A stretch of DNA of 64,000 nucleotides from Ignavibacteriota bacterium (GTDB lineage Bacteria; Bacteroidota; Ignavibacteria; Ignavibacteriales; Ignavibacteriaceae): assembly GCA_013285405.1 (NCBI GenBank), contig CP053446.1:1277985-1341984 (forward strand), given 5' to 3'. Made by a program: the position numbers and the translations under genes. Positions 33,576 to 62,027 of this stretch are shown here, piece by piece (position 1 is the stretch's first letter; every line of letters starts with the position of its first letter). Under the pieces are notes generated by a model. That model saw only the letters and a list, made by a program, of their open reading frames with translations, ran no database searches and was not told where the DNA came from.

Positions 33576-36500
33576 TTATTTCAGCAGGATCATCTTCTTA
33601 ATCGATAAAAAGTTATTTGATTCCAACCGATACATATATATTCCGCTCGCTAACTTCGATGCGTCAAAGTTCACTTCGTATCTTCCGGCTTTCTGTTCAT
33701 TGTTTACCAATGTTGTAACTTCCTCGCCAAGTAGATTGTAAACTGACAGCTTTACAAATCCATCTTCAGATAAAGAATACTTTATCGTTGTTGATGGATT
33801 GAACGGATTCGGATAGTTCTGTTCAAGCGAATATACCAGTGGTATTTCAACTTCAACTTTTACTTCTTCTGAATAAGTAACTGTCCCATCAAAATCAATC
33901 TGTTTCAATCTGTATGTATATTCTCCTGCATCAAGTTTTGAATCAACAAATGAATATGATTTGGGTTCTGTTGTTGTTCCGAAACCCGCAGCGTATCCGG
34001 CATTCTGCCATTCTTTATTATTCCCGGCTGATCGGAGAATCTCAAATCCCTGGTTATTCGTTTCTGTTGCAGTTGTCCACTTCAAATGAACTTCGCCATT
34101 TTCAGATGCTGCAGTAAACGAAGTAAGCTCAACAGGAACTATGCTTGTTATCTTCATCGCAACAGGGATAATTAATTCTGGATTTATTGGATCGTTGCTC
34201 GTGATTTTCATATCCATTGAATAATAGCCGCTGTCAAGTCCTTCCGTAATAAAATTAAGAAGAACGGCAATTGAATTTCCATTGTAAACCGTTCCTTGCA
34301 TATTTTGTGCTGTCAGCCAGTCTGGTTCTGCAGAAAACTGAAGTGCAAGATTGTTCTGCACATAATTTGCGTTGTAAGCTACCTGGAGTCCGTCTGTTCC
34401 GTTTGGATTTTCTATTCCAACGGTTGCGGAGTTAAGCGTTGCGTTCATATTATTATAGTAGATTACTATCTTGCCGCTTGAATGGAGTACAACTTGAAAT
34501 GTGAGAGAGCCTGTTCCTGAATATTTCTGCCAGTTAGTAAATTGAATGGTGAATTTGTTGCTATCCTGTTGATAATGAACAGTACCTTGGGTTCGCCCAT
34601 CTAAATCGTCCCAGAAAGGAGCGATATATTCATTTGGAATTGAACTGTTCGGTATTCCTGTATTAGAATAAATATTTGTGTTTAATGTATTGAACATAAT
34701 TATACCATTGGTGCTGACATAAACCTGTGTCTTTGTATTTCCGTAATATTTAAAATTAAAGCCTAACGGAAATGGACCAGCATATCCTTCTTCTTTTGGA
34801 TCAAATGTTCCGGTAGGAATCCAATTGGTAACAAGAGTTCCTGTGGTTGAAATATTATTCCACACGTAAGTTGGACCACCCGGTTCGTTACTATCAATCC
34901 ATTCATATCCAAAAAGATCCGGTCCGCCTGAACCCCGCGAGCTGCTTCCATTGTTCAAAACGGGATTATCTTTTGTTTCATTTACAATGCCTGATTCATT
35001 TAACTGAACAATTCTTGTAATTATCTGCCCGGGAAATGTATTATTAGTTAGCTCAACTTCGTAATCGAGTGTTGAATTTACAGAAGTTGTATTAAGTATC
35101 ATCACTGAATCAGTATGAGATGTATTTGGCAGTAGTGGACAATACATAGAATCAGGAGTCACTGTAATTTGTGGAGACCCCCAGGTTGTCAATACAGTTA
35201 CATTTGACATCACAGATTTATTTCCCCAGAGATCAAAAGCTTTTATTGCAAAGTAATATTGCGTACTGAAATTAAGATTGTGAAGAGTGTAACTTTTTGG
35301 TGTTCCTGATGTATCTGGTCCGCCTGCAACCATCATCTGTGGAGCATTTTCAAAATCATTATTTGTAACAATCGGTGTTGTTGAGTATCGCAGGTCATAA
35401 CTGACAATACCAAGAAATGAAGAATCCAATGGTGCTGTCCAGTTTAAATTAATTGAATTTGAAGTCGGATCAATTGCCGCCAGATCAGTTATTTGTGCTG
35501 GTGCAATTGTATCAGGCGTTACTCCCATTGTAAGCAGCATTGTACAGTCGCCAAAAATATTATACTGCTCCATTAATTTCAGACCCTCACCGGAGCTTCC
35601 GCCCCAAAGATCCATCGCGTGCATCAAACCGTTAAAAGAAATACCGCCAACTGTTTGTTTTTGTCTCGTTGTTAAAAGCATCATACCGTGGTTTTGCATA
35701 TCACAAGGTGGAACCCAGCTTGCATTTGTTGATGAACCATAAACTGCGATCGCACCTCTTGGTGTTGACATACTGCCTGTTCTTATCCAGGCTTCTTCCA
35801 TACATTCACTCATTGTAAAATCACCGTTCAAACAGGCAACATCAATGATGAAAGGATTTTTATATCCATTAGAAAGCTGATGAATGGCTGAATTACCAAA
35901 TCCTGTTGTACTCCACGATGTTCCTGATCCATGCCCGATATAATTGAGAACACTTCTTCCATTATTAATTGCATTTGTAACCTGCGATGATGTCGCACCC
36001 GGATCGTAAATCTGATCAACCTGTGTGAAATACATATTGTTCATTAACATATCTCTCAACAGGTTTGCGCGCTGCCAATCGGGCGGACTTCCTTCATTGC
36101 TTGCAACACCCGTTCCTTTTAAATACCATGCCGCATCGGGACCAGAATCCGGATATTTTTCATACCGTATCAACTTCCATAAAACATAGTCAAGGTTTTC
36201 TGCTGACGTCGGTGATATCCTTGAAATAAACGCATCCGGATAAGCATCGCTCCCGACAAGTTTAACATAACAGGGATCGGAAGGGGCTCCTTCGTATTGC
36301 CCGTTTATTGTTGGGATCTGGTTTGCTTCTCCAACTAATATTATAAAAGTTAATCCTTCGGGTGAGTTATAAAGATTCTGAATATAATTTTTAATCGCTG
36401 CCGAACCCGTTCCGGTTTGTGTGGGATATTCTGCCAGCAAAGTTGTGATGCCTCTTTCAACTTTCCAGTTGTAGAAAGGAGTTACGTTGCTTGCAAATGC

Positions 36501-37265
36501 AGTCGGATAAATTATCAGCAGTCTTCCGGTTTCTTCAAGCGGAGTGTAATCAAATTCGCCGATACCATAATTAATAAATATTGATTTATAAATTTCGTTG
36601 AAATCTCTATCAACTGCTTCCAGTGGATTTTTCCTTATGAATGAATTTACAGATTGCATACTGTAATCGTTAAAAACTTCCACAACAATTCGTTTGCATA
36701 TCTTCAGTTTCCCTTCTGCAGGATTGTACTGCATCGGGTTGAACTGGATTGTCTGCCCGCGCAAATCACGAACGATGTAAGGAACATCAAGCTGAATGTT
36801 TTCTGCTGGATACCAACTGTTTGTTGTATAGAATTCACTGAACTCAAATGGTACTGAATCAGGATCAATATTCCTTGTGAAATGTCCTTTTGATGGCATG
36901 ACAGGAAGTGTTTCTTTAGTCTCATATTCTGCATTGATGATTGAGTAATTTGTCGCCGCAAGATCAGGAATGACAATGCTTCTTCTGTCTGCCGGAAGCT
37001 GGGGAAATCCTCTTTCCATCAGAACGATACTGCCGGGAATCTGATATTGAGAACATTCTGTCCCATTAACATCTACAGTACGTTCATCATATTGAGTAAG
37101 GATGTATTCAACTTTTGTGCTCTGAGAAGTAACGCTCAGGATATTAGTTTTTATTCCGCCGTCGTTCAACCACTGAGCAAATACGTTCAATGGAACAACA
37201 AGAACAAAGAATAAAGATGAAAGTAAAAAGCAACTTCTTGCTTTTATTCCGCTTAAATATTTCAT
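33576..37265 (-). CDS. T9SS-exported gingipain-like C25 cysteine peptidase
   Basis: The 1,229-residue protein has a signal peptide (PLNVFAQW), a C25 propeptide-like region (about 40-240), and a peptidase domain with YIGHGSGTSW (catalytic His) and FIIDVACLNGDF plus ECMEEAWIRTG (catalytic Cys). An Fn3 domain (PAQITDLAAIDPTSNSINLNW, cited by its start), a further beta domain, a VELTSFTA spacer and a type A sorting domain follow. It should cleave proteins outside the cell. Its last 543 bases are almost identical to those of the next gene (37359-37901). Confidence 0.88.
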   Translation of the reverse strand: MKYLSGIKARSCFLLSSLFFVLVVPLNVFAQWLNDGGIKTNILSVTSQSTKVEYILTQYDERTVDVNGTECSQYQIPGSIVLMERGFPQLPADRRSIVIPDLAATNYSIINAEYETKETLPVMPSKGHFTRNIDPDSVPFEFSEFYTTNSWYPAENIQLDVPYIVRDLRGQTIQFNPMQYNPAEGKLKICKRIVVEVFNDYSMQSVNSFIRKNPLEAVDRDFNEIYKSIFINYGIGEFDYTPLEETGRLLIIYPTAFASNVTPFYNWKVERGITTLLAEYPTQTGTGSAAIKNYIQNLYNSPEGLTFIILVGEANQIPTINGQYEGAPSDPCYVKLVGSDAYPDAFISRISPTSAENLDYVLWKLIRYEKYPDSGPDAAWYLKGTGVASNEGSPPDWQRANLLRDMLMNNMYFTQVDQIYDPGATSSQVTNAINNGRSVLNYIGHGSGTSWSTTGFGNSAIHQLSNGYKNPFIIDVACLNGDFTMSECMEEAWIRTGSMSTPRGAIAVYGSSTNASWVPPCDMQNHGMMLLTTRQKQTVGGISFNGLMHAMDLWGGSSGEGLKLMEQYNIFGDCTMLLTMGVTPDTIAPAQITDLAAIDPTSNSINLNWTAPLDSSFLGIVSYDLRYSTTPIVTNNDFENAPQMMVAGGPDTSGTPKSYTLHNLNFSTQYYFAIKAFDLWGNKSVMSNVTVLTTWGSPQITVTPDSMYCPLLPNTSHTDSVMILNTTSVNSTLDYEVELTNNTFPGQIITRIVQLNESGIVNETKDNPVLNNGSSSRGSGGPDLFGYEWIDSNEPGGPTYVWNNISTTGTLVTNWIPTGTFDPKEEGYAGPFPLGFNFKYYGNTKTQVYVSTNGIIMFNTLNTNIYSNTGIPNSSIPNEYIAPFWDDLDGRTQGTVHYQQDSNKFTIQFTNWQKYSGTGSLTFQVVLHSSGKIVIYYNNMNATLNSATVGIENPNGTDGLQVAYNANYVQNNLALQFSAEPDWLTAQNMQGTVYNGNSIAVLLNFITEGLDSGYYSMDMKITSNDPINPELIIPVAMKITSIVPVELTSFTAASENGEVHLKWTTATETNNQGFEILRSAGNNKEWQNAGYAAGFGTTTEPKSYSFVDSKLDAGEYTYRLKQIDFDGTVTYSEEVKVEVEIPLVYSLEQNYPNPFNPSTTIKYSLSEDGFVKLSVYNLLGEEVTTLVNNEQKAGRYEVNFDASKLASGIYMYRLESNNFLSIKKMILLK
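33601..34143 (-). repeat. 543-bp near-identical C-terminal module, copy 1
   Basis: This segment matches 37359-37901 with only two base differences that I could find and no gap (differences near 34073 and 34108). It encodes the VELTSFTA spacer and the sorting domain. The two genes are otherwise clearly diverged. Confidence 0.9.
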
Positions 37266-37333
37266 TTATCTCACCTGATTTTAATTACTAAATATTGAAC
37301 TTTGTTTTACCCTTCCTTGGGTATCATTTGGCA

Positions 37334-40330
37334 CTATTTTATTAATATCATTTTCTTTATCGATAAAAAGTTATTTGATTCCAACCGATACATATATATT
37401 CCGCTCGCTAACTTCGATGCGTCAAAGTTCACTTCGTATCTTCCGGCTTTCTGTTCATTGTTTACCAATGTTGTAACTTCCTCGCCAAGTAGATTGTAAA
37501 CTGACAGCTTTACAAATCCATCTTCAGATAAAGAATACTTTATCGTTGTTGATGGATTGAACGGATTCGGATAGTTCTGTTCAAGCGAATATACCAGTGG
37601 TATTTCAACTTCAACTTTTACTTCTTCTGAATAAGTAACTGTCCCATCAAAATCAATCTGTTTCAATCTGTATGTATATTCTCCTGCATCAAGTTTTGAA
37701 TCAACAAATGAATATGATTTGGGTTCTGTTGTTGTTCCGAAACCCGCAGCGTATCCGGCATTCTGCCATTCTTTATTATTCCCGGCTGATCGGAGAATCT
37801 CAAATCCCTGGTTATTCGTTTCTGTTGCGGTTGTCCACTTCAAATGAACTTCGCCATTTTCAGATGTTGCAGTAAACGAAGTAAGCTCAACAGGAACTAT
37901 GTAACTGAGAGTTAGGTTATCCCAATAGATATTGTCTATGTTAAACGAATATCCGTCGTACATAATTTCTATCTGAACATCGGCTGAGCCTGCTGCTGGT
38001 GTTGTAAAACTGCCAGAGATTAATGTGGGCCCAACATTTCCAGTCGGATTAGTTTCTGTATATATAGGTGTGCTTGTTGCGCCACCATCATAGGTGATTG
38101 CAACAGTTATTATTCCGCTCGGATTAGCATACCAATCCAGATAAAAATTAAATGAATAATTAATCAATTGATTGTTAGGCAGGTCTATTGGTATAGATCT
38201 GATTTTTGAAACTCCGGTAAATGAGGGAGACCAGTTCATTCGGAGTTCTGGAGGAGTTCCTCCGGCATTTGCAGAACTATATGCTGACCAGTTAGTTGTG
38301 CCAAGCGGACCTACTATTGTCCAGTTGCTCAGGTTTGGAAATGGCTCAACCCATTGAAATAAATTTGGATCCTGCATTGTCGTAAATGTCCAAACTGTTC
38401 CGGGAACAACACACGTATCATTTTTCCCTTTTACCTGCCAGCCATAAATTGTGTTGTATTCGAAAGGCTCGAATTGTGATAATGATAATGATGTAATCGG
38501 TACACCGTTATAAACCTGAACCAGATTTCCTGTTTCTCCAAACCAAACTTCTATCTGAGATGCACCTGCGCCATTTGTCCACGTTGCAGTGTTTCCGGCA
38601 ATTGGAATGTTAGTAGCTCCGTTTGACGGATTCGGATTAGCTGGTGGATCAATCGGACACGGCGGTCCCATTTCCACAACAGGCATTGAAGGATCGCCCA
38701 TCAGATTATACATTTCAACATAACGTAATGTTGTTGTTCCGGTTCCGATTATACCGCCGTAATGATTAACAAGATATATCTTTGCCATATCAAACATCGG
38801 AGTGACTCTGGTTAGTCCGTCTTCAAACATTGCTTTGAATAATCGTCTTTCAAGAATATCATCCTCATCCCAATATGAATTCACGGAAGAACCGTAAAAT
38901 GTTGATCCACCATTAGTAGTTCGTAACCATGTTTCACCAAAACATTCTGTAAGATGATATGAGCCGGTAACACACGCGAAAGAATAAACAAACGGATACC
39001 ATGAGTTAGTTAAACTTCTAACTTGCAACTGGCTTAATGGTGGTCCGTCTGCCCAGGATGTTTCCGAACCATGCCCGGAGTAAACTGCAAATATCTGATT
39101 ATCATTAAGAGCATTTATAAGCTGTGTAGTAGTTGCATTATATGTATGAGTATAAAGTTTCAGATTGGTATATCCTGCGGGACCAAAATACTGATTGATA
39201 ACATAGTTATGTGTTCCTTCTGTTATCTGGTAATTATCAGAGGAAGACATATAAATATTTTTTTTATTCAGGGTGCCAATAAAATTTTCCATAAATACGG
39301 ATTTATTAATTACATTCTGAAGCTCAGTTGTATTTGCGATTGAAAATCTGCCAATGAAAGCATCTGCAAAATAATCACCGCCTTCGAGTTGAACATAATT
39401 CACATCCGTTCTTGGCGAACCTTCGCCTGTTCCGGTCCAGGCTGGAATTTGTGCAACATCTCCTACTAACAAAACATATTCTGGTTTGGTTGACGGTTCG
39501 TTGTATCTCGTCTGAATAAAATTCTTTATTGCAGTTGTAGTTGTTCCTGTAACTGTTGTGTTAAACATATCAACCTGAAAACCTTTGCTGACTTTGTGAG
39601 TTACAAACTGCTGCATTCCTGTTTCAAATGAAGGATCTGTTATTATTAAATATTTCGATGTGAGACGAGGATCGCTCCACTCATAATTCACAAATACTTT
39701 ACTTAAAAATTGGTTGAATGTAAATGATTTATCCGTTACCGGTGAAACTGGGTTATTAAATAAAATTTCTACTGCTCCTGTGCTTGTAATATATAGTCTG
39801 TCTTCGCCCGGATTATATCTGAACGGAAAGAGTGTGATTGTAACACCTTTAACACCGCCGATTATAAATGGCTCTGATATTCTTATAAAAGACTGATCCA
39901 TGTTTCCGGTTGAGTTATAATAATTCAGATCTATTGCGAACGGTCTTTCATCTAATGAGCTTGATTTTTCCCATGGCATCTGAACGGGATAAATTTTATG
40001 CTTTAATATCATTTCAGATACGACATTGTCTTTTAATTCGAATCCAGGCTGACTTTCTGTCTGCGAAATAAAAAGATTAAAAGAAATTATCGGAAGTGCA
40101 GGAAGTCCAACCACAGGATTAACTCCATATTCGGGAATTGTTAATTGAAGGTATTCTCTCCCTTCCGCAGTAACTTGTTCGAACTGATACCCGGGCAATG
40201 AAAAATCTATATGATAACCTTGTTGTGTTTTTGTAAGGCTCACTCCATCCGGTACAGAAGCGGCTGCCATTCCGTAGATTACAAAGATGATTGTGAAAAA
40301 TAATACTGGTAAACTGTGAAAGTGTTTCAT
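37334..40330 (-). CDS. T9SS-exported gingipain-like C25 cysteine peptidase, second paralogue
   Basis: The 998-residue protein has a signal peptide, a C25 propeptide-like N-terminal region, and a peptidase domain with AVYSGHGSETSWADG (His) and VYSFACVTGSYHLTECFGE, cited by its FACVTG Cys motif. An Ig-like repeat (PPANPNPSNGATNIP), a MAM/jelly-roll-like domain (ISGSFTTPAAGSADVQIEI), and a VELTSFTA spacer with sorting domain follow. I choose ATG 40330 with GGGG upstream; a longer frame reaches 40369. It lies immediately upstream of the 33576 gene on the same strand (68-base gap). Confidence 0.87.
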   Translation of the reverse strand: MKHFHSLPVLFFTIIFVIYGMAAASVPDGVSLTKTQQGYHIDFSLPGYQFEQVTAEGREYLQLTIPEYGVNPVVGLPALPIISFNLFISQTESQPGFELKDNVVSEMILKHKIYPVQMPWEKSSSLDERPFAIDLNYYNSTGNMDQSFIRISEPFIIGGVKGVTITLFPFRYNPGEDRLYITSTGAVEILFNNPVSPVTDKSFTFNQFLSKVFVNYEWSDPRLTSKYLIITDPSFETGMQQFVTHKVSKGFQVDMFNTTVTGTTTTAIKNFIQTRYNEPSTKPEYVLLVGDVAQIPAWTGTGEGSPRTDVNYVQLEGGDYFADAFIGRFSIANTTELQNVINKSVFMENFIGTLNKKNIYMSSSDNYQITEGTHNYVINQYFGPAGYTNLKLYTHTYNATTTQLINALNDNQIFAVYSGHGSETSWADGPPLSQLQVRSLTNSWYPFVYSFACVTGSYHLTECFGETWLRTTNGGSTFYGSSVNSYWDEDDILERRLFKAMFEDGLTRVTPMFDMAKIYLVNHYGGIIGTGTTTLRYVEMYNLMGDPSMPVVEMGPPCPIDPPANPNPSNGATNIPIAGNTATWTNGAGASQIEVWFGETGNLVQVYNGVPITSLSLSQFEPFEYNTIYGWQVKGKNDTCVVPGTVWTFTTMQDPNLFQWVEPFPNLSNWTIVGPLGTTNWSAYSSANAGGTPPELRMNWSPSFTGVSKIRSIPIDLPNNQLINYSFNFYLDWYANPSGIITVAITYDGGATSTPIYTETNPTGNVGPTLISGSFTTPAAGSADVQIEIMYDGYSFNIDNIYWDNLTLSYIVPVELTSFTATSENGEVHLKWTTATETNNQGFEILRSAGNNKEWQNAGYAAGFGTTTEPKSYSFVDSKLDAGEYTYRLKQIDFDGTVTYSEEVKVEVEIPLVYSLEQNYPNPFNPSTTIKYSLSEDGFVKLSVYNLLGEEVTTLVNNEQKAGRYEVNFDASKLASGIYMYRLESNNFLSIKKMILIK
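37359..37901 (-). repeat. 543-bp near-identical C-terminal module, copy 2
   Basis: Partner of 33601-34143. Identity starts within the last codons of the gene and stops abruptly at the beginning of the VELTSFTA spacer, at a domain boundary. Confidence 0.9.
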
Positions 40331-40786
40331 TCTAACCCCATCGAGAAAAGTTTTAAAAATTGCGGACACTGATTAACGAACAAATAAGTAAATATTTTAT
40401 TTAGCAAATTTAAAGTGAATTATTATCACATCTCTACACACAAAACAACAGTTGCTAAAAGTAAAATTAAATTGAATCAGGGAACACTGATATTTACTGC
40501 GTCAGCACAATTAGAAAAAATTTCTTTTGTCTCATATTTCTTATGAAGTACTGATAGTCATTGATTTCAAAAATGCTGACCTTATAAGGAAGATGATGCT
40601 ATATGCAGAAAAATAAATTTTCCGTGTCTTGATCAACACGCAATTTTCTTCTGCCAGGCATCCCGAAATAGTAAGTCTGTTCACTTCACTCTTATAAATA
40701 TTTGCTAATTGTCAATAAACTTTATAATATTTGGATGTTCTTTTAATTAACAAATATCTATAATAAAATCTACTACCGGAGGCATA
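40331..40786. other. 456-bp region between divergent genes, no gene seen
   Basis: No open frame or RNA structure could be supported. It holds the promoters of the C25 gene (minus) and the small exported protein (plus). Confidence 0.45.
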
Positions 40787-56410: not shown

Positions 56411-57520
56411 CTAACATGGAATATTGAAGTAATTTAATACAACACACGGATCTAGATTAAAGTAAGATAATAAATCTATAATTTCCTGAACTCCTAAATT
56501 CAGATGATGATACAACAAATCTATAATCTCTTCAATACTGAATCCTGCTTCGTACAATATTTCAACAGTTACAGGAATAGTAAGATTATAGACTATAATC
56601 AAAATATCCGCAATGTTTTCAATATTCACATTGAGCTGCTTTAAAAGTGAAGTTGTAGCTTCTGCAGAATAATGGAAATAATCTTTCAGTACAATTCCAA
56701 TTTGTTCGTAGCTATATTGAAGTTCAATAAGCACTTCAGTTATTTCGCTAACGTCATAATCTTTTTCTTCAAGCAGCTGAGTCATTTGTAATGTGGAAAG
56801 ATTGTATAAATCTTTTAACACATTTAGCACTTGAATAACCGGAAAACCATTATCTGATAAAAATTGGAAAACTTCTGAAGCCGAAGAGTTATAAATTGTT
56901 CGTAGTGCATCTGCTATTTCAGAGGCTGTGCATTCGGCTTCAAGAATTAAAATTTTTACGTCTTCTTTGGTTAGCTGAAAATTATTTATAAGAACTTTAA
57001 TTACTTCTGTGGAGTTGTCACCAACGTCTTTAAGTATTATCAGGATAAGTTTTTGGTTTTCCTTAAAAGTATTTTTAAGAATTTGAACTTTACTTTCAAT
57101 ATTCACAACCTTTTGCAGAAAATATTTCAGATCTTCCCGGCGCGTTTTTAATTCATCCGCATATTCAGATAAAATTAACTCAGCAATATCGGCTTCGGTT
57201 TTATTTTTCAGAATTTCAATTAGTATTGGTTCAGCTAACCTTGAATTGTATTCGTAAGCAATGTGAATGGCTTTAACCACATCACTTACGGAATAGCCGG
57301 CATTATACAATGATTTAAGAAGCACATTATCATCAAAACTGAACTCTCTGTCAATGGTTATTGCTGCTTCAACAACTTCAACTCCCTGATTGAACAATTC
57401 AACAGTTCGTTTGTTAAGTTTTTCGTTATCATTTATAGGAGGTGTAACAACCTCATCTTCGCTGCATCCGATTATTAAGAGGATTAACAGCAACATTGCT
57501 AAAAATAAAATGTTTTTCAT
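56411..57520 (-). CDS. alpha-solenoid lipoprotein
   Basis: The 369-residue protein has a signal peptide with lipobox LIIGC, then about ten degenerate repeats of about 33 residues, each a helix-turn-helix with a pattern like xxIAxxLxxxYxxSxxxxxxLLxxxGYxxxxVxxVLK (examples: ASEIADALRTIYN, VSEITEVLIELQYS, IENIADILIIVYN, IEEIIDLLYHH). This should form an elongated solenoid on the outer membrane. I chose ATG 57520, preceded by AAAGG; a longer frame reaches 57586. I do not know a family with this exact repeat. Confidence 0.75.
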   Translation of the reverse strand: MKNILFLAMLLLILLIIGCSEDEVVTPPINDNEKLNKRTVELFNQGVEVVEAAITIDREFSFDDNVLLKSLYNAGYSVSDVVKAIHIAYEYNSRLAEPILIEILKNKTEADIAELILSEYADELKTRREDLKYFLQKVVNIESKVQILKNTFKENQKLILIILKDVGDNSTEVIKVLINNFQLTKEDVKILILEAECTASEIADALRTIYNSSASEVFQFLSDNGFPVIQVLNVLKDLYNLSTLQMTQLLEEKDYDVSEITEVLIELQYSYEQIGIVLKDYFHYSAEATTSLLKQLNVNIENIADILIIVYNLTIPVTVEILYEAGFSIEEIIDLLYHHLNLGVQEIIDLLSYFNLDPCVVLNYFNIPC

Positions 57521-57699
57521 TTTAATCACCTTTCTTTTGTTTGATTCTATCCTAAAACTATGTTGTACAATGCGGGGTTGTGTCATTATATTGTCAAAGA
57601 ATTGTCATTTGTTGGAAGACCTTCCGCAAAAAACAATATTGTGATAAGATGAATAATTATTATTTTGTTAAGAGAATTTCAGATTTGGAGTGATATAGA

Positions 57700-60600
57700 A
57701 TGATCGTAATAATAAAAAATAAATCACTAATTACTATTGCAATTTTATTTATAAGTCTGTTTCAATTAAGACTTGAGGCACAAACACATTTTTCTCAGAC
57801 AAATTTTAAAAATAATTCTGTTTCATATTCCTCTGATCAGCCATTTGCATCATATTGGTTTCCACTTGAAATTTTAAGCTGGTCACCTTCAACTGATCCG
57901 GATGCACCATACAATCGTTCCGGTGTTCCATTAAAAAATAAATTCGTTGATACATTATTAATTATAAATTCTAACTCAAGAGTAAATGAAGCAAGAGTAA
58001 ATCCGTTGTCAGCGTTTGCACCAACGAGTGATAATCCTTCACAGGGTTCTTTGAATATTAATTATTATTCTTTCAGTTACTGGCAGTACGTTGACCGGCT
58101 TGTATTCTGGGGTGGTTCTGCCGGCGAAGGATTAATTCTTGCACCAAATTCTACTTTAATTGATGCAGCACATCGCAATGGAGTAAAAATTTTGGGAAAT
58201 GTTTTCTTTCCTCCGACTGTTTACGGGGGACAGTTTCAATGGGTGAATGATTTTCTCCAGAAAAATGGAAATACTTTTCCTGTTGCTGATAAATTAATTG
58301 AAGTGGCAGAATATTATGGATTCGATGGATGGTTCATTAACCAGGAAACTGCTGGCGGCAATTCTCAGACAGCAATTAATATGAGAGATTTTATGATTTA
58401 CTTCCAGGAAAATTCTGATCTTGAAATTGAATGGTACGATGCGATGACAGAAAATGGCAGCGTCTCCTGGCAAAATCAGCTTAACTCACTAAACGACTGG
58501 TTCTTTCAATGGGGTGATACTCTTGTTTCCGAAACAATGTTTTTAAATTTTTGGTGGAACTCAACCGGATTAAACAATTCAAGAACACTCGCTCAGAGTT
58601 TGAACAGAAATGAGTTCGACTTATTTGCGGGAATTGATGTTGAAGCAAACGGATATAATTCAAGCATAAACTGGTCAGCACTTTTCCCGAATAATCTTCC
58701 TCATGTAACATCACTTGGAATTTACAGACCTGATTGGTGTTATAATTCTTCAACAAGTCTTGCAGACTACTATAATCGTTCAAGTATTTTCTGGGTTGGA
58801 TGGAATCACGATCCGGGCAACACAACAACATCAAATAACTGGAAGGGTATCGCCAATTATATTCCAGATAATACTCCGATTACTGAAATTCCGTTTGTCA
58901 CCAATTTTTGTACCGGGCAAGGTTATGATTTCTACATCAATGGAGAAAAATTATCTTATCCTGAATTATCGGCAACCGGATGGAACAATCTGTCACTTCA
59001 GGATGTTCTTCCTTCGTGGCGATGGATAGTTCAAAGCAGCGGAATAAAATTAATTCCTGAATTTGATTTTACTGATGCATATTACGGCGGGAACTGTCTA
59101 AAAATTTCCGGAAATCTTTCAAGCGATAATCTGATAAAACTTTATCATACAAATTGTTTAGTTTCTTCGGATACAAAAATTGATCTCGCATTTAAAACTG
59201 GAGCTATTGGTTCAACAAATATGAAAGTCGGATTGGCATTTGAAAACGATCCATCATCATTTACTTTTTTTGATATTGGGAATACAACTTCCGCAGACTG
59301 GAATTTAAAAACTATTGATATTGGTTCATTCAGTGGACAAAAAATTTCTGTTGTTGCTTTATTTTTTACCGGCGGTTTTGGAAGCGGCTACCAAATCAAA
59401 ATCGGAAGGATGAGTATTTATAATGGCTCGATTGACATTCCGGATCCGCCAGCAAATCTTTTCATAGAAAATAAAGTTGATGAGCAAGGATTTGTAACTT
59501 TAAGATTGCGCTGGGATCATTCAACAAGTGAAGTCTATTATTATAATATATTCAGAAGAAATCAGGATAGCTCATTAACATATCTTGGCGGAACAGCAAA
59601 CAATGCATACTTCGTTCCATTTATTAAATATGAACCGGGAGACAGTTCAGTATCTGTTCTTGTTCAAACTATCGGTAACGAGTTTGGTGAATCTCCTTTT
59701 GCCGAAACTTCATTCGAATGGTTTTCTCCACCGGGAATTGCAATCAATCCTTCTCCTGAAGATGGAGATACTGTTTTAGTTCGCAATCCAACTCTTGGGT
59801 GGACTCCGGGAAACGGTTCTTCATCGTTCGATATTTTTCTCGGAACAACTAATCCTCCGCAATTTATTCTCAACACAACTTCAAATTCTTTTCAGACTGA
59901 ATTATTAAATTCAAACACGACCTATTACTGGAGAATCGATTGTAAAAATCAATACTATACTACACAAGGAGATGTTTGGAGTTTTACAACAGGAATTTCA
60001 ATTGCAGATACAAATGGATTTGCGCTTCAGTTTGATGGAACTGATGATCTGTTGAATTGCGGTAACGGAAGTTCATTGCAAATAACAGGAAATAAAATTA
60101 CTCTCGAAGCATATATAAATGTGAATGAATTTAAAAGTCAGCCATTTGCAGGAAGTGTAATTGTAAAAGATCAGGGATCAAATAGTTCCGGATACATGAT
60201 ACGATGTGGAGGAAATGGTATTATTAATTTTAATATTGGTAACGGAAGTTGGCATGAAATTAATACTTCCGCTAATGCTGTTCTGTTGAATCAATGGCAT
60301 CACGTCGCTTCAACTTATGATGGAACAAATATGAAAATTTATGTTGATGGTGAACTAAAAGCTCAGTCAAATTTATCATTTACAATTGGCAATGCTAATA
60401 ACAGCAATCTATTGATTGGTGAATCGCCCGGCTTTCCAGGAAGAGTATTCAATGGAAAAATTGATGAAGTAAGAATCTGGAATGTTGCACGATCACAATC
60501 TCAGATCATAAATACGATGAACACAATTTTATCTTCTGAATATTATTCGTCTCCTGACAGTGGGCTTGTTGGTTACTGGAGACTGGATGAAGGAACAGGA

Positions 60601-61104
60601 CAAACAGCAGAAGATTTTTCTTTCTTTGCAAACAATGCAACTCTGGGTTCAACATTAAATCCTGATTTAAACGATCCATCCTGGGTTGAAGCAAATATTC
60701 TGATTGTAAATGTTAAAGATGAAATTAAAAATAATTCCATTCCAACTGAATTTAGTTTATCACAAAACTTTCCGAATCCATTTAATCCTTCAACAAAAAT
60801 AAGATTCACAATCCCAGCCTCATCCTTAAATCCCTTCTCCAAAGGAGAAGGGACTTTTGTAATCCTTAAAGTTTATGACATTCTCGGAAACGAAGTTGCA
60901 ACATTAGTTAATGAAGAAAAGACCGCAGGAAGTTACGAAGTTGAATTCGGTGGTCATTCTGACGAAGGTCAGAACCTGCCTGCCGGTAGGCAAGGTCTCG
61001 CAAGTGGAGTTTATTTCTATCAGCTAATAGTCTCGGCTGGGCGAAGCCCAGACAGAAAAGCTGGCACATTCATTCAAACAAAGAAGATGGTTCTTATCAG
61101 ATAA
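57700..61104 (+). CDS. T9SS-exported GH85 endo-beta-N-acetylglucosaminidase with LamG domain
   Basis: The 1,134-residue protein has a signal peptide, then a GH85-like catalytic domain (SYWFPLEILSWSP, DRLVFWGGSAGEGL, VKILGNVFFPPTVYGG, YGFDGWFINQE with likely catalytic Asn214 and Glu216). This enzyme class cleaves the chitobiose core of N-glycans. Fn3-like modules and a laminin-G-like domain (FALQFDGTDDLLNC from about 774) follow, then a type A sorting domain. Three palindromic elements are inserted in frame in the last 100 residues. The arylamine N-acetyltransferase gene starts at the next base. Confidence 0.85.
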   Translation: MIVIIKNKSLITIAILFISLFQLRLEAQTHFSQTNFKNNSVSYSSDQPFASYWFPLEILSWSPSTDPDAPYNRSGVPLKNKFVDTLLIINSNSRVNEARVNPLSAFAPTSDNPSQGSLNINYYSFSYWQYVDRLVFWGGSAGEGLILAPNSTLIDAAHRNGVKILGNVFFPPTVYGGQFQWVNDFLQKNGNTFPVADKLIEVAEYYGFDGWFINQETAGGNSQTAINMRDFMIYFQENSDLEIEWYDAMTENGSVSWQNQLNSLNDWFFQWGDTLVSETMFLNFWWNSTGLNNSRTLAQSLNRNEFDLFAGIDVEANGYNSSINWSALFPNNLPHVTSLGIYRPDWCYNSSTSLADYYNRSSIFWVGWNHDPGNTTTSNNWKGIANYIPDNTPITEIPFVTNFCTGQGYDFYINGEKLSYPELSATGWNNLSLQDVLPSWRWIVQSSGIKLIPEFDFTDAYYGGNCLKISGNLSSDNLIKLYHTNCLVSSDTKIDLAFKTGAIGSTNMKVGLAFENDPSSFTFFDIGNTTSADWNLKTIDIGSFSGQKISVVALFFTGGFGSGYQIKIGRMSIYNGSIDIPDPPANLFIENKVDEQGFVTLRLRWDHSTSEVYYYNIFRRNQDSSLTYLGGTANNAYFVPFIKYEPGDSSVSVLVQTIGNEFGESPFAETSFEWFSPPGIAINPSPEDGDTVLVRNPTLGWTPGNGSSSFDIFLGTTNPPQFILNTTSNSFQTELLNSNTTYYWRIDCKNQYYTTQGDVWSFTTGISIADTNGFALQFDGTDDLLNCGNGSSLQITGNKITLEAYINVNEFKSQPFAGSVIVKDQGSNSSGYMIRCGGNGIINFNIGNGSWHEINTSANAVLLNQWHHVASTYDGTNMKIYVDGELKAQSNLSFTIGNANNSNLLIGESPGFPGRVFNGKIDEVRIWNVARSQSQIINTMNTILSSEYYSSPDSGLVGYWRLDEGTGQTAEDFSFFANNATLGSTLNPDLNDPSWVEANILIVNVKDEIKNNSIPTEFSLSQNFPNPFNPSTKIRFTIPASSLNPFSKGEGTFVILKVYDILGNEVATLVNEEKTAGSYEVEFGGHSDEGQNLPAGRQGLASGVYFYQLIVSAGRSPDRKAGTFIQTKKMVLIR
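60819..60857 (+). repeat. intragenic palindromic element 1
   Basis: CCCTTCTCC-AAA-GGAGAAGGG (60832-60852) with flanks CCTTAAAT and ACTTTT. It adds about 12 residues (LNPFSKGEG) in frame between the FTIP strand and ILKVYD of the sorting domain. The CTAAATC/CTTAAATC-plus-palindrome design resembles the hairpin element around the DUF559 gene. Confidence 0.75.
60975..60994 (+). repeat. intragenic palindromic element 2
   Basis: TGCCTGCC/GGTAGGCA near-palindrome (stem 60977-60992, one G-T) inside CCTGCCTGCCGGTAGGCAAGG. It encodes NLPAGRQGL in the loop before the LASGVYFYQL strand. Confidence 0.75.
61037..61051 (+). repeat. intragenic palindromic element 3
   Basis: CTGGGC-GAA-GCCCAG, followed by ACAGAAAAG. 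It encodes AGRSPDRKAG between the LIVS strand and the TFIQTKKMVLIR end. Confidence 0.7.
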
Positions 61105-61860
61105 ATGGATATAAATTTGTATTTAAATAGAATTGATGTTAGAAAAATAATGGAACCTTCTCTTGCGTTTTTAACTGAACTTCAAAATCATCATCTTCTC
61201 TCCATTCCTTTTGAAGATCTCGACATTCCAAATCGCTCAAGAATTGAACTTGACCTGAATAAATTATACAACAAAATAATTTTAACCGGACGTGGAGGTT
61301 TTTGTTATGAACTTAACGGACTCTTCTACTGGCTGTTAACTTCGCTTGGATTCAAAGTTGATATGCTTTCTGCCCGCGTGTTCAATTCAAAGACTGGAGA
61401 TTTAGGTCCGGAGTATGATCACATGACTCTTCTTGTTCATCTAGATAAAAATTATTTGGTTGATGTTGGTTTCGGTGATTCGTTCAGAAATCCGATTGCC
61501 TTTCCTGATGGAGAAACCGATGACATTAGTGGTAGTTACAGAATTTTTCAAATCGAAAATAATCTGTTTGAACTTCAGAGAAAGGATAACGATTCTTTTT
61601 CAAAGCAGTATAGTTTTACAACAATACCTCGAAAACTTTCTGATTATAACGCAATGTGTGTGTTCCAGCAAGACAGTCCGACTTCACATTTCAGAACAAG
61701 AATGTTATGCACAATTGCTACTGAGTCCGGACGGATTACTTTAAGCGATAACTCGTTAACTATTACAAATAATGGCAAAAAGATAATTGAGAAATTTACT
61801 GACGAAGATAAATTTTATTCTCTGCTAAAAGCTTATTTTAAAATTGAATTAGCTAAATAA
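61105..61860 (+). CDS. nat: arylamine N-acetyltransferase
   Basis: The 251-residue cytosolic enzyme moves an acetyl (or other acyl) group from CoA to arylamines, hydrazines or similar. The Cys-His-Asp triad is visible: Cys67 in GRGGFCYELNG, His106 in YDHMTLLVH and Asp120 in YLVDVGFGD. Length and positions match the family. The ATG follows the stop of the GH85 gene without a gap, so it is translated from the same message. Confidence 0.93.
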   Translation: MDINLYLNRIDVRKIMEPSLAFLTELQNHHLLSIPFEDLDIPNRSRIELDLNKLYNKIILTGRGGFCYELNGLFYWLLTSLGFKVDMLSARVFNSKTGDLGPEYDHMTLLVHLDKNYLVDVGFGDSFRNPIAFPDGETDDISGSYRIFQIENNLFELQRKDNDSFSKQYSFTTIPRKLSDYNAMCVFQQDSPTSHFRTRMLCTIATESGRITLSDNSLTITNNGKKIIEKFTDEDKFYSLLKAYFKIELAK

Positions 61861-62027
61861 AAATATTTTATCGAATAATCTGCCACAAAACATTGAACGT
61901 TCACTTTCTTCTATTAACAACACATCATCAAAAACATCCGCTTGTAAAGTAATCGTGGGGTTTCTACGTCGCAGGATTTAGCTTTAAATCAGAAATCATA
62001 AAAACTTAAAGTTAACAGAGGTGTAAA

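Follow-up and report, generated by a model that had tools for sequence, protein, structure and literature searches.

Palindromic elements carried in frame within genes are best known in Rickettsia and Wolbachia. In these genera several families occur in frame in the genes of conserved proteins, at exposed sites, and differing families can be found near one site in orthologues (PMC2229807, PMC3767692); the unit length of the Rickettsia elements (RPEs) is 105-146 bp (PMC2229807). Among other small repeats, REPs are palindromes of 20-40 bp that are present in many copies, some of them intragenic in other species (PMC3733652), MITEs such as ERIC and Correia are small non-autonomous repeats able to fuse in frame to genes (PMC2229807), and PARCELs are mobile palindromic coding sequences found in surface proteins (PMC2996958). 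A literature search, for which subscription journals were partly out of reach, turned up no paper that reports palindromes inside sorting domains, and the palindrome sequences themselves, used as queries, returned unrelated papers, probably by way of primers.

The palindromes described here resemble RPEs in being multi-copy and in lying in frame inside the genes of conserved proteins (palindrome B, below, in valS, purL, ABC-F, dnaN and gltX). They differ in unit length (about 15-50 nt, and 21 nt for B, vs 105-146 bp), in that one domain family hosts many copies of many families, and in belonging to another phylum. These elements work like RPEs but are too short for the RPE class. Their size and their repetition within the genome recall REPs, which, however, are mostly extragenic and tagged with GTAG or CGTC; by eye, none of the four palindromes (A, f, B and C) bears either tag, and other palindromes closely flank the RAYT-like genes found in this genome. 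With MITEs they share the nature of small non-autonomous repeats and the fusion in frame to genes, but MITEs are longer and several come with a target duplication, whereas B has none in valS. PARCELs are likewise mobile palindromic coding DNA in surface proteins, but consist of tandem 25-residue amphipathic repeats, in contrast to the single, unrelated inserts seen here.

The GH85 gene and its sorting domain

The window, i.e. the whole stretch of DNA analysed (64,000 nt), is taken from an Ignavibacteriota genome of 3.86 Mb that forms a single contig. The product of the open reading frame at 57700-61104 matches Glyco_hydro_85 (6.3e-83), GH85_C and Laminin_G_3 (1.7e-30) in Pfam, and its closest named orthologues come from Ignavibacteriaceae MAGs. 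In the tail of the protein the Pfam scan gave FlgD_ig alone, below the cut-off. The tail was found by a profile built from C-terminal sorting domains (CTDs) of plain length, and this profile and an AlphaFold2 model identify it as a type A sorting domain (the Ig-like domain with seven strands at the C-terminus, of the TIGR04183/PF18962 kind). No known RNA family was found in 57000-62000. The features are as follows.

57700..61104, + strand: GH85 endo-beta-N-acetylglucosaminidase with a laminin-G domain and a C-terminal T9SS sorting domain (open reading frame; Pfam matches)
60732..61101, + strand: type A sorting domain (CTD) with 7 predicted strands, site of all four palindromes (plain-length CTD profile; AlphaFold2 model, pLDDT 79)
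60831..60853, + strand: palindrome A, TCCCTTCTCC-AAA-GGAGAAGGGA, loop beta2-beta3, peptide SLNPFSKGEGT (sequence)
60957..60974, + strand: palindrome f, TTCTGAC-GAAG-GTCAGAA, loop beta5-beta6, peptide HSDEGQN (sequence)
60975..60995, + strand: palindrome B, 21-nt unit CCTGCCTGCCGGTAGGCAAGG, immediately 3' of f, peptide NLPAGRQG (unit defined by the valS empty site)
61030..61053, + strand: palindrome C, GTCTCGGCTGGGCGAAGCCCAGAC, loop beta6-beta7, peptide VSAGRSPD (sequence; recurrence of the core in CTDs)

All palindromes of the gene are in frame and fall within about its last 125 codons. The initial annotation had placed three of them correctly and in frame but missed f, which abuts B on its upstream side, so that the number is four; it had also given A a stem of 9 bp, where a perfect stem of 10 bp is found. 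The core of B (TGCCTGCC/GGTAGGCA, 60977-60992) has one mismatch in its stem, and that of C (CTGGGC-GAA-GCCCAG, 61037-61051) is part of a longer imperfect stem (61030-61053). That the inserts occupy loops between strands of one domain, as had been proposed, is borne out by the model (pLDDT 79), which has seven strands and places the inserts between strands 2-3, 5-6 and 6-7 (strand bounds 22-28/42-49, 67-73/93-102 and 93-102/113-122), with confidence lowered there; in this model the third-loop insert touches the ends of its bordering strands. The remaining CTDs found in the window are without inserts, in agreement with what had been said of the sister domains. Elsewhere in the window (33576-40369) are two neighbouring peptidases of the C25 (gingipain-like) family, which have propeptide and Por sorting domains and CTDs free of inserts.

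Inserts in sorting domains of the genome and of the order

Type A sorting domains number at least 215 in the genome. Across 227 CTD alignments, drawn from 0.66 Mb of stretches around CTDs, 119 insertions of at least 3 residues were found, all of them in three loops: beta2-beta3 (36), beta5-beta6 (55) and beta6-beta7 (28), hereafter loops 1 to 3. None of this size was found in the CTD core of the 227 alignments, nor in loop beta3-beta4. This map fits mutational data from Porphyromonas gingivalis, where loop beta3-beta4 and the C-terminus of the CTD are essential, and where RgpB with eleven residues in place of three in loop beta5-beta6 was unaffected in export, cleavage and activity (PMC11285876). 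We infer that the inserts are tolerated by the protein rather than useful to it.

An insert belonging to a named palindrome family is present in 68 of 224 CTDs (about 30%) and absent from about 70%. The hairpin census was scored on length-matched windows and on distinct loops because a mirror repeat, probably in the CTCC-AAA-GGAG family, had muddied it; background rates outside CTDs came from about 0.69 Mb of CTD-surrounding stretches together with pattern searches. Of the distinct long loops, 21/52 contain a strong palindrome for loop 2 (vs 3.2% of length-matched coding windows) and 11/30 for loop 1 (vs 2.8%), while in loop 3 the signal is weak at the chosen threshold (4/25 vs 4.4%). These counts are to be read with the non-independence of CTD copies in mind, and the family labels were assigned after the data had been inspected.

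At least 12 unrelated palindrome families, with units of about 15-50 nt, make up the inserts. They include CTCC-AAA-GGAG, GTCATTGCGAG..GAAGCAATC, CCCTGAGCGAAGTCGAAGGG, GTCATTCTGACGAAGGTCAGAATC and GTCATTCCGGC..GTCCGGAATC, as well as TCCGCC..GGCGGA, CCGATCAGGCTCGG, CAGGACTCCAGTCCTG, CCTTCGACAGGCTCAGG, GTCTCGGCTGGGCGAAGCCCAGAC and others. Several are largely or wholly confined to CTDs: CCTTCGACARGCTCAGG has 5 exact copies in the genome, 5/5 in CTDs, f occurs at 10 sites, 9 of them in CTDs, and the three exact cores of C all lie at the same CTD loop, where stems related to C (GTCTCGTCTTTGCAAAGCAAAGACG) also occur. Palindrome A has a single further exact copy, likewise inside a CTD; it lies at L002:1501-1521 (contig position 1344081), in the same loop of a protein encoded about 5 kb downstream of the GH85 gene.

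Palindromes also sit within palindromes. TCCGCCAATGGCGGA is lodged at the tip of f, TCCGGCAATTGCCGGA takes the place of the tip of GTCATTGCGA..GAAGCAATC (giving GTCATTGCGA[TCCGGCAATTGCCGGA]GAAGCAATC), and B is found within GTAGGGGACGAA..TTCGTCCCCTAC in a CTD loop of another genus. At locus L270 an f-like unit occupies the tip of GTCATTACGA..GAAGCAATC. The apparent start of a TPR-like protein lies just upstream of that outer palindrome (L270:950-1050; contig position 2889785), and the nested palindromes there possibly form an N-terminal extension of this protein. In loop 2, B occurs in at least three different contexts (following f, following a GTCATTCCGG unit, and alone), and a 54-nt composite of f and B is nearly identical in 7 CTDs.

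Orthologues differ at these sites. In one GH85 orthologue (L067:1476-4829) loop 2 of the CTD contains TCCGCCATAGGCGGA followed by CTCCGGCGGAG, which replace f and B, while two others (L068, L069) have no palindrome; four further best-hit pairs show differing loops. Many genera of the order have CTDs in which these three loops carry palindromes, some shared and some different, the rows having been picked with a profile that favours inserts, from which no rate is derivable.

Palindrome B and its empty site

The core of B is present in 18 exact and 8 one-mismatch copies genome-wide. Nine of the 18 exact cores are in CTDs, although CTDs make up only about 1.7% of the genome. Other copies lie in frame in the genes for ValS, PurL and an ABC-F ATPase (names read from the sequence). 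For valS the congener G002 provides the empty site, AAGCTGCCGATTGTCGG, against the filled AAGCTGCCGA[CCTTGCCTGCCGGCAGGCAGG]TTGTAGG. The insert is exactly 21 nt long with clean borders, and at this one site there is no target-site duplication. The same 21-mer was present in 7 of 296 sampled genomes of the phylum, and lies in frame in DnaN, in a genome from outside the class, and in GltX, in other genera. The 21-nt rather than the 20-nt form is found at 13/15 coding but 2/10 non-coding sites (Fisher p 0.0024, by a hand count in which CTD copies are not independent), which suggests that selection for frame is reflected in this bias. At a separate site, L019:1490-1520 (contig position 2347198), B ends in GGCAGGAG shortly 5' of the ATG of an amidohydrolase-like gene, for which it may supply the ribosome-binding site.

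The view that small, mobile, RPE-like repeats lie in the loops of export tags was put forward in the initial annotation, and it gains support from the genome-wide recurrence of the families and from the valS empty site. The idea of loops as safe sites is likewise upheld, the same three loops being used across the order by many different palindromes, and the comparison of GH85 orthologues turned out as expected, with inserts either missing or replaced by another palindrome. The opposite picture, of ancestral inserts maintained as protein sequence and not as DNA palindromes, is contradicted by these data. The elements are indeed present in exported proteins but are not restricted to them, given B in ValS, PurL, ABC-F, DnaN and GltX.

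Origin and spread of the inserts

The inserts are probably copies of short palindromic elements, mobile but non-autonomous, that selection has sorted into the tolerant loops of CTDs. This reading draws on the recurrence of the families, their exclusive use of three loops, their absence or replacement in orthologues, the 21-nt insert in valS and the nesting of one palindrome in another. Elements would insert at many places in the genome, presumably by transposition through a responsible enzyme, and selection would retain those copies whose length and frame leave the protein working. Copies would survive preferentially in the CTD, with loops beta2-beta3, beta5-beta6 and beta6-beta7 accepting extra residues at presumably little cost or benefit to the protein, and the number of these domains (>215 per genome) would favour it further. 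An element that has entered one CTD could then reach others through recombination between similar domains, which probably adds to the spread, in a share that we can only infer.

The inserts lie scattered over a quick tree of CTD core DNA, built from a short alignment, on which the 10 carriers of f require 10 changes and the 16 carriers of CTCC-AAA-GGAG require 9. Insert DNA is mostly closer between carriers than the 45 nt on each side, as in f+B (identity 0.93 in the insert vs 0.80 and 0.62 in the flanks); in the GTCATTCCGG and CAAGCCCGGAATGAC families a gapless comparison found inserts no more similar than their flanks. Carriers of C share an identity of 0.90 between loops 2 and 3 vs 0.61 before loop 1, and the raised identity beside this family fits local gene conversion. 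Part of the CTD copies may therefore stem from recombination and not from fresh insertion, and our conclusion is that both routes, insertion and recombination, are at work.

A check of four Y1-transposase genes linked neither a transposase nor any other mobiliser to the families. RAYT transposases were rejected as mobilisers, the close flanks of the four Y1_Tnp genes being without these families; some 1-1.5 kb from one of these genes there is B both as a plain copy and within a GTCATTGCGAG unit. The four RAYT-like genes (L189, L190, L191 and L192; contig positions 2835452, 2635065, 2547697 and 2374616) show a REPtron-like arrangement, each being flanked by palindromes of its own type (AGCCCCGTGCT, ACCCAATTTCTT, CCTCAACCT and TGAGACTCACCT).

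An appreciable but rather doubtful possibility is that palindromes entered CTDs rarely and that ectopic recombination (gene conversion) accounts for most of their spread, with the CTD family as their vehicle. The 54-nt composite that is almost unchanged in 7 CTDs, the three exact C cores at one position amid raised neighbouring identity (0.90), and the scatter of inserts across the CTD tree would all be explained in this way. Yet identity falls at the insert borders in most families, the same loops are common to at least 12 unrelated families, B occupies loop 2 in at least three contexts, and its copies in valS, purL, ABC-F, dnaN and gltX are beyond the reach of recombination between CTDs. These housekeeping copies, which lie mid-gene, also make it unlikely that a function maintains the inserts, either as RNA hairpins close to the message's 3' end (stability, translation) or as peptides that tune secretion or anchoring. 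The CTD is the final part of each gene, and the inserts fold well as RNA (A, B and C outscore dinucleotide shuffles, with z of -3.6, -2.3 and -2.8), as such a function would have it; but the insert peptides are mutually unrelated, orthologues differ, and most CTDs do without inserts.

It is very improbable that the hairpins were formed locally by mutation at stalled replication or by template switching and never moved. The exchange of palindrome tips for other palindromes (GTCATTGCGA[TCCGGCAATTGCCGGA]GAAGCAATC, and the L270 site) and the compensating stem variation at a single site (CTGGGC/GCCCAG vs CTTTGC/GCAAAG) could be read in this sense, but identical sequences stand at unrelated loci, in other genera and even in another class. 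Chance, with short stems in one gene being seen since they were sought, has a negligible place. At least 3 stems of at least 6 bp are found in about 4% of codon-shuffled copies of the GH85 tail, so it is the long stems and their recurrence, rather than their being three in number, that carry the significance; the summed hairpin score of the 414-nt GH85 stretch was matched by 0 of 1500 codon shuffles and by 0 of 156 insert-free CTDs (330-nt stretches), and the genome-wide recurrence of the sequences refutes chance.

Returning to mobile elements sorted into tolerant loops, we tentatively suggest, as a possibility on the doubtful side, that CTDs may form a shared refuge and relay, in which more than 12 unrelated families would persist, travel between secretion tags across the order and enter loops as well as each other's tips, by a route independent of the resident RAYTs. 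Peptides such as NLPAGRQG, SVTLSEVEGS and DPSTGSGQ, when met in predicted proteins, reflect DNA repeats and not conserved protein motifs. The many filled and empty sites offer material for working out how elements of about 20 nt move, and a family of more than 215 copies of one domain in a single genome amounts to a natural saturation experiment on the loop tolerance of the T9SS sorting domain.
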